Origin: Symbiodinium sp. CCMP2592
Taxonomy: Eukaryota > Sar > Dinophyceae > Suessiales > Symbiodiniaceae
Assembly (NCBI GenBank): GCA_905221615.1
Contig: CAJNDT010006024.1
Span: forward strand, 558,001 to 622,000
Length of the DNA: 64,000 bases
Direction of reading: 5' to 3'
A program made the translations under genes and the position numbers. Positions 39,017 through 61,209 of the stretch are shown in pieces. How positions within the stretch are numbered: the first letter of the stretch is position 1; every line of letters begins with the position of its first letter. Under the pieces are notes generated by a model that made no database searches, had not been told where the DNA came from, and worked only from the letters and a program-made list of their open reading frames with translations.

Positions 39017-39447
39017 ATGTCTGCAACACTGCACGAACTAGTTACCAGTTCTAGTTCCAGTCTGGCAGGGTCAGCCCTGGGTATAAGGGAAGTCGGCATA
39101 AGGCCTCGCCCTGCAAAGAAGCGGAGTGCGAGAAGCCTGCTGACGTTCACCAAGGACGACGGGGGAAGGGGCGGTGCTTTGAATTCCGAAAATAGGGGTA
39201 CCTTATTTTATGGGGTTCCTTATGATAAGGGTCCTACTATCTGGGGTACTCTATTAGGATCCCCTATTTTCGGAAACTCCCCCTTTTGGTGTTCGGAGAA
39301 GGAATGGAAGCGAACCGCGCAGTTGATTTGAAAGACTTGTACAGGGCTGCAAAAGCAACCTGCGGCTTGGAAGTCTTTCCTAGGAATCCAGGGCTGCGAA
39401 AAGCTTTTGATACCCATGTTGTTTTGAAGGATGGTTGCGATGATTAG
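39017..39447 (+). CDS. Small gene split by a family C element, unknown function
   Basis: Exon 1 (ATG 39017 to 39173) ends in a basic, Ser-rich stretch and TFTKDDGGRG. Exon 2 (39302-39447) reads MEANRAVDLKDLYRAAKATC and ends in TAG. Removing 39174-39301 (GTGCTT...GAGAAG) joins the two in frame (phase 1), giving about 100 residues. Without splicing the frame runs through the TIR element and stops. The product is not recognised. The start is chosen as the first ATG in an otherwise longer frame. Confidence 0.4.
39178..39280. mobile_element. Family C TIR element, copy 1, probable intron body
   Basis: TTCCGAAAATAGGGGTACC at the left mirrors CCCCTATTTTCGGAAACTCC at the right. It fills most of the predicted 128-bp intron 39174-39301. 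Confidence 0.8.
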
Positions 39448-45355: not shown

Positions 45356-45425
45356 GCCGACCAGAGCAAAGTGCTCAGCTTGGAGCAGATTGCGGAGGTC
45401 TTCGGCCCTGAGGCAGAAGAGTAAA
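45356..45425 (+). CDS. Terminal exon, unknown protein
   Basis: The frame EADQSKVLSLEQIAEVFGPE ends in TAA at 45423-45425 after an AG-rich acceptor region. It faintly recalls an EF-hand edge, but this is too short to assign. A family C element starts 9 bp after the stop. Confidence 0.4.
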
Positions 45426-45433
45426 GGGATCTG

Positions 45434-45534
45434 GGAGTTTCCGAAATTAGGGGTACCTTATTTTGGGGGTCCTTCCAATAAGGATCCTACTATTTAGGGT
45501 ACTATATTAGGGTCCCCTATTTTCGGAAACTCCC
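45434..45534. mobile_element. Family C TIR element, copy 2
   Basis: Best-preserved copy, 101 bp: GGGAGTTTCCGAAATTAGGG ... CCCCTATTTTCGGAAACTCC then C. It is flanked on both sides by ATCT (45430-45433 and 45535-45538), a 4-bp target duplication. Confidence 0.92.
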
Positions 45535-45539
45535 ATCTG

Positions 45540-46320
45540 ACTCCTTGGCCTTGCAATCTGGCTCTTGACTCTGGGCTTCCTGCGTGTAGGCATGCATTGC
45601 TTTTCGCGCGTTCTGCTGATGTGTTATGTTATGTTTGGAAATGCTAAGTATGCGCGTGCATAGGTAAGATTGTGCGTAGTAAGCATTTAAAGTTTGTAGT
45701 TGCCAGTATGTATAATTTCATGAAGTGTCATATAGCGCATGTAATGTAAAGCATGTAATGTATGTGCGAACGATCTTTCTGCAACGACGGATTTGTGTAT
45801 GAACTCCTTGGAGCCTTCGCCTGCATGCTCATCTTAAAGGCCCATGCCTGCATGTCTCTCCACGGCAGCTGTGTTACAAGCCCTTGCTCGTCAAGAGCTG
45901 CAGTTGAGCATATGTTTAATCAGCATGTAAACTGGAATCTGCAGGTATGTGTGCCGCGTCCCCTTCTGTATTGATGTTTTTACACTTAAGACCTATAAAA
46001 ACACCCAAAACCCAAAACCCTAAACCTTAAACCCCAAAACCCAAAACCCTAAGCCATTCGATGGGATCGTGGAACACCTTCGACTGCAGGGCTCCTTTGC
46101 TGTCCGTGGGGAGCCCCCGACGGATGGCTGGCGATTCTGCGGCAGCCAGCAAAAGATTCAGGGCCTTAGGGTTGAGGGTTTTGGGGTTTAGGGTTTAGGA
46201 TTTGGGGTTTTAGGGTTTGGGGTTTTAGGGTTAGAGGGTTTTAGGGTTCAGGGGTTTAGGGGTTTAGTGTTTAGGGTTCAGTGATTCAGGGCCTTCGGCG
46301 GTTGTAGGGTCTCTTGCTTA
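45540..46320. repeat. Unassigned DNA with telomere-like repeats
   Basis: CCCAAAACCCTAAACC words at 46000-46055 and TTTAGGG/GGGTTTTAGGG words at 46160-46290, again facing each other. The frame at 45762-45974 is not recognised. Confidence 0.6.
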
Positions 46321-57481: not shown

Positions 57482-58250
57482 GGGACCGTAACATGAAGCC
57501 AGTGCTTCCCGAAATACGATCTCAACTTTGTTTACATAAAAAGATCTCATGTGGTCAAGACGATGCTAAGTCCGCTTTCAGGGCCCGTTTGGGTTTGGCG
57601 CTTTCTGTTAAGTTTTTTGTTCTGCAGTATTGGACGGACATGAAATATGCTGGAACACAGGTTCAGGAAGATCAGTACGGTAGCACGAGAGCAGTATGTC
57701 CCGAAATTTGAATATCACAAGTTGGAGTACATTAGTAATTGTGGCCAACAACCGGGACTTAAAGCTTCTTGCTAAGACCGACCCAAGATACGTCATCTTC
57801 TGCTGCCCCAGCATTCTGTGTCCAACAATCCTTCACAACAGATCAGCTTCCTCATCGTTCCCCGCCCCAACAGCAGCCTCCTGCGCTGTGCTGTACTTGC
57901 ACCCGCCCAGAACAGAAGTATCGACTAATCCAAGAATCGATGGGCCCAATTCGAAAGGATCGCCCGAATCCATTGTGCAGATGGTTACAGCTTTACGCAT
58001 GTATATGTATGTGTGGGGCGTGTGGGCCGTTTGTTGCTTGCACGAACCTGCATGCATGCATGCATGTCTCCAGGTATGTGTCAGCATTCTAGCTCCAAGA
58101 AATTCTGCCCTGGCTGGATCAAGCTTGCTTGAGTTCTCACTCTTGGTCACAGGTGCAGTGCAGTGCAGAGAAAAGTAGAGGAGAAGGGTGGACAAGTAAC
58201 AGGCAAGATGTCTCATCTGAACTCCGGTTTCTTCCTCTGGTTTGCTTTTT
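57482..58250. other. No recognised gene
   Basis: Short frames on both strands (57696-58178, 57833-58216 minus) without domains; likely the upstream region of the ankyrin gene. Confidence 0.4.
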
Positions 58251-58252
58251 AG
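58251..58252 (+). promoter_or_regulatory. Candidate trans-splice acceptor
   Basis: A pyrimidine-rich tract (TTTCTTCCTCTGGTTTGC then TTTTTAG) ends in AG 24 bp before the start codon of the ankyrin gene. Dinoflagellate mRNAs receive a spliced leader at such sites; use here is inferred. Confidence 0.4.
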
Positions 58253-58276
58253 CGCAACTCCTCACTCTCACTGGAG

Positions 58277-59526
58277 ATGCTGCATGTTACATCGCTCTCC
58301 GGGGAGAAGTACGCCGTGCCAGCGAAGGACTACAGCGATGGGAGGGCGCTGAAGACGTACTTCAGTCGTACCCACGGCTTTCCGCCTCGCTTCCAGCAGC
58401 GGATGCTTCTCGAAGGCAATGAACTGGAGGACAGCACCTTTGTCATAGTTGGGTAACATTTTACATTTTTATGGGTACTTAAGCCCCAAAAAGGAATAAC
58501 AGTTTGGATTTTTAATCATCCTATCCCAACCAACCATGAACCAGGCACCGGGCTGGAGGCGTCCATGGAGCTGAACCTGCTTCTGCTTCCTTTGAGCTGC
58601 ACGGAAACAGAGAAGCTTTTCGCTGCCATCGATGAGGGATCTGCAGCCCAAGTGGAAACCCTCTTGCAGATCCCCCAGGACCCAAATCAAGCTGACGCAG
58701 ATTCCAGGCTGCCTCTGCAAATCGCAGCCGCTGACGGGAATGTTGACATCGTGCGCTTGCTGTTGGAGGCTCATGCCCACACTAACTCCGCCGACAGAGT
58801 AGGCAGCACAGCTCTCATGCGGGCCTGCGCACGGGACGATGCAGAAGTGGGACGTCTGTTGCTGGAGGCAGGTGCTGACACAGACTTAGTGGACATTGAC
58901 GGTTACACCGCCTTGATGCGTGTATCCGGCAAAGGCCATGCCACCGTTGTGCAGTTGCTCTTACAGGCCGGTGCTAGCACAAGCGTTGTCAGCCAAAATG
59001 GCCACTCAGCTCTGATGTTCGCAGCGACACGCGGCAAGGAAGAAGTGACACGTTTGCTTTTAGAAGCTGGTGCCGACCCCAACTTTATCACAGAGAAGGG
59101 TCTCCGCGGCTACACACCTCTCATGAACGCATCCAGTGCAGGCCACGCTCCAGTGGTGCAGTTGCTCCTTGCCGCCCGAGCTGACCCGAATGTTGTCGGT
59201 CACGTTGGCCTCAGAGCTCTGTCGGGAGCGGCTAGCCAGGGCCGGGTTGAGGTGGGAGTCTACCCTTTTTTCGGAGTCCTTATAACAAGAAGCCTAGTCT
59301 TTAGAGTTCTATACTGGGGTCCCCTACTTTCGGAAACGGCCAGGTGGTTCGCCTGCTGCTGGAGGCCAGGGCTGACCCTAACTTCTCGGACGAGTCTGGC
59401 AGCACAGTCCTTGACGATGCAGCAGACCATAAGGAAGTTCTGGCCTTGCTTGAGCCCCACGTGGAAAAGCCTCCAGCCAACACGGGAGAGCGCTCAGCCA
59501 CCGGCAGCAGTTGCCAGGTGTCCTGA
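58277..59526 (+). CDS. Ubiquitin-like plus ankyrin-repeat protein
   Basis: Three exons, 58277-58433, 58545-59251 and 59344-59526, give 348 residues. Residues 1-65 form a ubiquitin-like domain (MLHVTSLSGEKYAVPAKDY then RMLLEGNELEDS). Six or seven ankyrin repeats follow (for example VDIVRLLLEAHAHTN, EVTRLLLEAGADPNF), then a Ser-rich tail. This layout is a common dinoflagellate family; ankyrin repeats bind proteins, and the cellular role is unknown. Intron 1 (58434-58544) is GC-AG and joins NELEDS to TGLEASMELNLLLL, the expected end of the domain. Intron 2 (59252-59343) is GT-AG and is a family C element. Its removal restores GRVEVVRLLLEARADPN. Unspliced, the frame shifts inside the repeat. The start is the first ATG in frame. 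Confidence 0.88.
58434..58544 (+). other. Intron 1 with TIR-like ends
   Basis: GC-AG intron of 111 bp. GCACC occurs at both junctions, so the splice point can slide. Inside, TCATAGTTGGG (58443-58453) is a partial mirror of CCCAACCAACCATGA (58525-58539). It may be a decayed element of another family. Confidence 0.5.
59252..59343 (+). mobile_element. Family C TIR element, copy 4, acting as an intron
   Basis: Element 59254-59341: GGGAGTCTACCC at the left, CCCCTACTTTCGGAAACGGC at the right. AGGT flanks both sides (59250-59253 and 59342-59345). The left AG|GT gives the donor and the right AG|GT the acceptor, so splicing leaves no scar. Confidence 0.85.
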
Positions 59527-59624
59527 GACCAGAATAGCTGTCAGGCTCCGTTTCACAGCCACTGTCCTTGATGTGAAAAAGCATTCGGCCGTCTGCAGAC
59601 CAAGTAATGTAGGGACATGAACTT

Positions 59625-60050: not shown

Positions 60051-60368
60051 TGTGGTTTTCTCTTTTCTTAGACACTCTGAACCCGAAAGACTCGCAACCT
60101 GCACGCCAAAGTCGCACCGTAACCTGAAGGACCACAGAAAGCCCTGTACCTAGGGTTGAGGCCTGGGGTGACCCAGCTACAAGTCTGGAGCAGAAATTCG
60201 CAAAACATATCTCAGACGCTTGACCGATGCCTTGTCGCTCTGTGAGCAGCTGACATACAAGAAACTTGAAATCTTGGTCTGTAGATGCCCTAACCCTAAA
60301 AAAAAACCCAAAGCCCTAAACTTGAAATCTTGGTCTGTAGATGCATACGAGGCCAGAGGTCGTTCTTA

Positions 60369-60404
60369 ACCCCCCCCCCCCCTCCCCCCCTCCCCCCTCC
60401 CCCT
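60369..60404. repeat. Poly-C tract
   Basis: Thirty-six bases, almost all C with four T; possible G-quadruplex on the minus strand. The sentence-like duplicate TTGAAATCTTGGTCTGTAGA occurs just before at 60266 and 60321. Confidence 0.9.
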
Positions 60405-60449
60405 AATGGAAGGCACGATATATCGTGGCGCCTGGTGCGCGTGTAACCA

Positions 60450-60545
60450 ACTATCAATATAGTATATACCCTTATAGTATCCCCGAAAGGAACCCTACAA
60501 AAGGAACCCTGGTCTAACTATTAAGGCCCCTATACTATAGTACCC
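60450..60545. mobile_element. Family B-related element, copy 11, worn
   Basis: ATATAGTATATACCC and CTAACTATTAAGGCCCCTAT ends; the middle differs. Confidence 0.5.
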
Positions 60546-60587
60546 TTATAGATCGTAACCCTGATAGACCCCTTTAAAGTAAGCCTG

Positions 60588-60690
60588 TCATGGGACTTAG
60601 TAAGTAAGGTTATACGCATCTTAATTGGGGTTTATAAGTATAGTTACCCTAATTATAACCCCAGTTACTAAGTCCCATGATCCTTTAAGT
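60588..60690. mobile_element. Family A TIR element, copy 6
   Basis: TCATGGGACTTAGTAAGTAA at the left; AGTTACTAAGTCCCATGATC at the right. Confidence 0.92.
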
Positions 60691-60925
60691 AGTCTAACTA
60701 TGAAGGTCCCTCTTATAGAACCCTTACAGACCCCTATTAAGGAGCCCTTTAAGGAACCTGATCCTTCCCCTCTTATAGAACCCTTATAGATCCCTATTAA
60801 GGAGCCCTTTAAGGAACCCTGTAAGTAGTCTAACTATGAAGGCCCCTCTTATAGATCCCTTATAGATCCCTACTAAGGAGCCCTTTAAGAAACCCTGTAG
60901 TTACTAAGTCTAACTATGAAGGCCC
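60691..60925. repeat. Tandem repeat, about 3 units of 75-80 bp
   Basis: Each unit has AGTCTAACTATGAAGGCCCC, CTTATAGATCCCTA and AAGGAGCCCTTTAAGGAACC. Confidence 0.85.
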
Positions 60926-60927
60926 TT

Positions 60928-61048
60928 AAACCCTAACCCTAAACCCTTAAACCCTAAACCTTAAACCCTAAACCCTAAACCCTCTAAACCCTAAACCCTA
61001 AACCTTAAACCCTAAACCCTAAACCCTAAACCCTAAACCCTAAACCCC
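60928..61048. repeat. CCCTAAA telomere-type array
   Basis: About 16 nearly perfect CCCTAAA units with a few CCTTAAA variants: the cleanest block in the window. 61049-61206 separates it from the reverse transcriptase stop. Confidence 0.95.
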
Positions 61049-61209
61049 TACGTTACTTCCCGCCCTGCGAAGGCCGAAGCCAAGGCTTCCGAGGCCGAGC
61101 GCCGTGCGGAGGAAAGTCTGGGCCTCGCACTTTCGGGTTCCGGGTACTCGTATGTGGGTTCAGGGGTTTACATTTTCCGCATTTCAGTGCGATCAGTGGT
61201 GTACGCCGC

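Follow-up and report, generated by a model that had tools for sequence, protein, structure and literature searches.

The gene studied here lies on the forward strand at 58277-59526 of the window, i.e., the whole 64,000-nucleotide stretch of Symbiodinium sp. CCMP2592 DNA that was analysed. In the spliced model it encodes a product of 348 amino acids, in which ankyrin repeats follow an N-terminal part that is ubiquitin-like by eye, and it contains two predicted introns (58434-58544 and 59252-59343). The exons were delimited by comparing the spliced model with the homolog P0002. Exon 1 of this ubiquitin-like/ankyrin gene (58277-58433) begins with the ATG at 58277, exon 2 (58545-59251) carries ankyrin repeats, and exon 3 (59344-59526) holds the last ankyrin repeat and the C-terminus and is closed by a TGA stop. 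In a protein-level alignment, P0002 and the 348-aa product matched without gaps both ways, with 280 of 348 residues identical (80%). The identity of exon 3, whose spliced frame is free of stops, was similar to that of the whole protein (45 of 58 residues), and the match of the unspliced translation (P0001) to P0002 ends at the junction residue. In the host genome itself, the three best other ankyrin loci (50-54% identical) run uninterrupted across the position of intron 2; as ankyrin registers are loose, these same-genome loci were weighted below P0002.

Directly 5' of the ATG, a pyrimidine-rich stretch with a TTTTTAG end (58240-58276) resembles, by eye, an acceptor for spliced-leader trans-splicing, and such an acceptor before the ATG is typical for dinoflagellates. 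Downstream of the gene, C-rich runs, telomere-like CCCTAAA repeats and repeated TATAGAACCCTTATAGA-like units were seen at 60300-61050, with five units of the CCCTAAA repeat at 61010-61044.

The two predicted introns

Intron 2 (59252-59343, forward strand) is predicted to be a GT-AG intron of 92 bp in phase 0 and represents a decayed copy of a MITE, family C, with the element proper at 59254-59341. The preceding exon ends in ...GTTGAG, the intron runs from GTGGGAGTC to GGCCAG, and exon 3 starts with GTGGTTCGC. The earlier note had reported AGGT on both sides of a family C insert, and the two copies were found at 59250-59253 and 59342-59345 of the forward strand. The GT of the left copy would form the 5' splice site and the AG of the right copy the 3' splice site. 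A target site duplication (TSD) of 4 bp is the rule in this family and the junction falls exactly on AGGT, which agrees with the proposal in that note that the duplicated target gives both splice sites. The boundaries of intron 2 thus coincide with those of the element and its TSD, a mark by which introners are recognised.

Before the insert, the ankyrin reading follows frame 1 of 58457-59620, and VRLLLEARADPNFSDESG after the insert is in another frame. Removal of 59252-59343 yields the peptide GRVE|VVRLLLEARADPNF in phase 0, gapless against P0002, so that excision does restore the ankyrin repeat as had been claimed. The frameshift expected on retention was likewise borne out, both by the length of 92 bp, which is not a multiple of three, and by the new frame: translation continues in the wrong frame without an early stop and the C-terminus is replaced. 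Since this frame stays open over 410 aa, an unspliced protein could still be made.

The description of 59252-59343 as a TIR transposon holds for the family rather than for this copy. It belongs to a family whose TIRs are clear in its sister copies, but its own TIR has been lost: a search of 59200-59400 for inverted repeats with a length of at least 8 found none, the 5' TIR is short of some 14 bp, and the 3' end reads GGCC, not CTCCC. In RNA folding, 198 of 200 shuffles folded at least as well as the ankyrin copy (z = +2.0). Such a loss of the TIR and hairpin is to be expected if the intron, once its gain was fixed, persisted after the transposon features had gone. That splicing requires the hairpin was also considered and is unsupported, the ankyrin copy having lost its own.

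Intron 1 (58434-58544, forward strand) is predicted to be a GC-AG intron of 111 bp in phase 1. The element that formed it, at 58438-58544, belongs to a second family (F2) and has the TSD GCAC at 58434-58437 and 58545-58548. The GC 5' site comes from the TSD and the 3' AG lies within the F2 element; exact removal of the intron gives ELEDSTGLEA, the same as in P0002. F2 is unrelated to family C. At least 41 further places in the genome match it, with up to 92% identity among the matches listed, and 371 exact 5' ends with a non-C first flanking base were counted. The F2 copies extend from CTTTGTCATAGTTGGG as far as AACTAG or AACCAG, the TIR having been read by eye, and 13 of 21, the ankyrin-gene copy included, have a perfect 4-bp TSD. 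Removal of another F2 copy (L126) joins the peptide RPETAESLFY|LYRMTG, which we take to be a glycosidase (GH47) motif. With F2 in intron 1 and family C in intron 2, both predicted introns of this gene are derived from transposons, by two routes.

Family C and its insertion targets

Two other copies of family C were detected in the window, both on the forward strand, at 45433-45534 and at about 39184-39281 (nhmmer E-values of 2e-11 and 1e-6, respectively). The former is intact, with TIR arms of 30 bp at 87% identity, a TSD of ATCT at 45429-45432 and 45535-45538, and a strong hairpin (-57 kcal/mol in RNA folding; z = -7.3 against shuffles). The latter has a degenerate left end. The intact copy lies just 3' of a TAA that closes an upstream frame (45380-45540, by eye) and is possibly part of a 3' UTR.

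Intact elements are about 102 bp long and their TIRs start with GGGAGTTTCCGAAAATAGGGG. The ankyrin insert shares 78% identity over 82 bases with the nearest window copy, and in the 1.098-Gb genome searched (5,383 contigs) it matched 39 other places at 81-87% identity among the 40 scored of 1,281 candidates. Counted where the first flanking base is not C, the exact 21-bp family C end occurred 8,875 times genome-wide, and the reversed control not once. ATAT was the commonest flank among the 100 places listed for such ends. When the 39 copies chosen by similarity, with their flanks ignored, were inspected, both ends were found in 37 and a perfect 4-bp TSD in 20, all 20 of which were ANNT, mostly ATAT and ACAT/ATGT. 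With a pattern one base shorter than that used for the 8,875, 73 exact ends were flanked by AGGT and 90 by ACCT (163 in total); these flanks therefore make up about 2% of the exact ends, the larger count being from the pattern one base longer.

Short, non-coding and of high copy number, with TIRs and a fixed 4-bp TSD, family C has the characters of a MITE. Since targets of the ATAT type dominate and AGGT/ACCT account for only about 2%, splice-ready targets are a small minority, and on its sequence features family C is a general MITE that follows an ANNT target rule and lies mostly outside introns. Its TIR was also searched for in contigs of viral and prokaryotic genomes, and no match was obtained.

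Coding context of AGGT-flanked copies

The coding context of copies at AGGT was compared with that of copies at other targets. Of the 73 AGGT-left copies, identified by an exact left TIR, 70 were fetched; 39 of these also had AGGT at the right and were kept, including one near-identical pair (L013 and L014), and 31 were dropped. The controls comprised 37 of the 39 copies closest to the query, with both ends found although some ends are doubtful, and seven of eight other copies with non-AGGT left ends; removal of L092 as a duplicate of L090 reduced them from 44 to 43. Open reading frames across the joined sites were required to have at least 20 codons on each side and at least 50 in total, and were scanned against Pfam, some peptides being trimmed to 55 residues either side or otherwise. 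In the AGGT set the first ten frames were chosen by eye, and the remaining 21, scanned later, gave no match.

A Pfam domain (E <= 5e-5) extended across the junction in 6 of the 39 AGGT copies, all 31 sense frames having been scanned, and in 33 none did; among the 43 controls no domain passed over the junction at E <= 0.01 in any of the 37 frames on both strands (Fisher p = 0.0093). Under the stricter frame threshold the count was four of 39 (p = 0.047), and under Pfam's own cut-off it was three of 39 vs none of 43 (p = 0.10). The three matches that reach the Pfam cut-off are a Helicase_C domain in L070 (6e-26), cut inside ATDVASR|GLDI, an ankyrin match in L067, and an Ion_trans match in L032 that reaches no more than about five residues beyond the junction. 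The other three, slightly below the cut-off, also span the junction: an ammonium transporter in L024, ubiquitin in L060 and ankyrin in L065. In L020 (FKBP) and L046 (PPR), which are outside the six, the domain adjoins the junction. The domain-splitting copies represent five kinds of gene, and such similar putative introns at non-homologous sites are likewise a mark of introners. Predicted intron boundaries coincide with element/TSD boundaries also in L020, L024, L032, L060, L067 and L070.

The 172-aa FKBP protein of L020 has six homologs that are continuous over the junction, among them a 98% match from Symbiodinium sp. CCMP2456, an MMETSP transcript and one from Alexandrium monilatum. Retention of the insert would bring an in-frame stop in all ten of ten hand-picked AGGT copies. 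Among the coding cases family C occurs in both orientations, as is expected where the target alone supplies the splice sites. No domain match was obtained from the five antisense frames scanned of 23 in the AGGT set. Plain frame length over the junction separated the AGGT and control sets poorly: with at least 30 codons on each side and at least 90 in total, there were 11 sense and five antisense frames in the 39 AGGT copies and 15, both strands together, in the 44 controls. A test for all-open sequence over +-120 nt discriminated weakly if at all, the sense and antisense counts being 5/39 vs 2/39 for family C and 5/21 vs 4/21 for the second family. Four AGGT-flanked inserts (L016, L065, L073 and L076) were about 183-198 bp long instead of the usual 105 and contain extra internal sequence; when the longer insert of L065 was removed whole, the ankyrin reading was rejoined.

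Proposed origin of the introns and comparison with known introners

Based on the results of this study, 59252-59343 is best interpreted as an intron born through the insertion of a MITE into an AGGT target, with a probability of about 0.87, splicing itself being predicted from the DNA. Among the alternatives, the insertion may be unspliced and exonic, in which case the locus would be either a pseudogene or an allele whose C-terminus is new. The open retained frame of 410 aa would be in line with this; however, with 78% of 82 bases shared with its closest counterpart in the window, and 87% identity to the best other match among the 40 scored, the copy looks old, and in spite of this age exon 3 has stayed stop-free in the spliced frame, with 45 of its 58 residues as in P0002. 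An unspliced insertion is therefore improbable. Somewhat less credible again is an older spliceosomal intron at the same position, inside which the MITE landed and replaced the older sequence. Dinoflagellate genes are rich in introns according to the portion of PMC11453091 consulted, which speaks for this alternative, but intron 2 is made up of the element and a single copy of the target, no older intron sequence being left, and the same exact fit is seen again in other genes. It is this lack of any other sequence inside intron 2 that disfavours the older intron.

It could also be argued that a repeat came to lie beside AGGT by chance and that the frame was restored by luck, given that one in three excisions preserves the frame and that AGGT is recurrent, by eye, in these ankyrin codons (GAG GTG). 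This explanation was ruled out, and is negligible in probability, because a 4-bp TSD is the rule of the family, with the junction exactly on it, and because domains are spanned in 6/39 AGGT copies vs 0/43 controls.

In the preferred reading, that of intron birth from a MITE, a non-autonomous TIR DNA transposon of about 102 bp with an ANNT preference would have inserted at AGGT in the second coding exon. Repair of the staggered target would have duplicated AGGT, giving a transcript of the form AG|GT-element-AG|GT, from which the spliceosome would excise the element and one target copy exactly, leaving the protein unchanged. Because both ends carry similar TIRs, the element should work in either orientation. 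After establishment, the interior would have decayed, with loss of the 5' TIR and the hairpin, while GT and AG were kept. We infer the splicing, the transposase that moved family C and the order of these steps; the element copies, the TSDs, the exact restoration of the frame and the domains split by sister copies can be read from the DNA itself. Intron 1 would have had the same general origin, from a second family with its own 3' AG, the TSD supplying the 5' site only.

A general MITE would thus become an intron in those cases in which its ANNT target is AGGT. The earlier note had regarded the insert as an introner-like precise intron, which is supported by the exactly restored protein, by the 4-bp TSD as the family rule and by the AGGT sisters that split domains in frame, but the family is mainly non-intronic. 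We consider it somewhat probable that family C is an incidental introner without splice signals of its own, whose ANNT rule simply takes in the proto-splice site AGGT and a small share of whose insertions are instantly functional introns in either orientation, and that two such families, each by its own route, gave rise to both predicted introns of this gene. If this is correct, introns would be a by-product of target choice. As an example of intron birth the locus is compact and open to testing, with two predicted introns, two transposon families and two routes to splice sites in one gene. Moreover, family C serves as its own control, since the same element occurs in thousands of other targets and with AGGT or ACCT at 163 exact ends, and this allows one to ask if the target sequence alone suffices for an intron.

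The introners of Micromonas and Aureococcus are reportedly of the MITE type, with the TSD helping to supply splice sites. By this description they are similar to family C in being MITE-type elements with TSD-derived splice sites, and their hosts differ. The work on these two genera (Huff et al. 2016) is cited in the parts of PMC10522408 and PMC10666404 that were consulted. The text of PMC9860276, as far as it was available, terms some algal introners MITEs and describes family 1 of S. microadriaticum (Gozashti et al. 2022), which has 4-bp TSDs, TIRs and its own 3' site. Compared by description, family 1 resembles family C in its dinoflagellate host, short element, 4-bp TSD and TIRs, and F2 in drawing the 5' site from the TSD and the 3' site from the element; however, family 1 carries a 3' site, whereas family C carries neither site and takes both from the TSD. 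In Florenciella sp., according to the same portion of that source, neither splice site belongs to the introner and both are co-opted from the insertion site, just as in family C, although the hosts are unrelated. In dinoflagellates, Polarella glacialis among them, many introner families per genome and high intron gain were found (Roy et al. 2023, as summarised in PMC11453091), and by description the Polarella introners are like those of the present host in both respects. In a literature search that covered full texts in part, a description of the family C element was not found. Intron-making transposons with 4-bp TSDs and TIRs are, by the portions of these sources consulted, already known for Symbiodinium, and family C is a further example.
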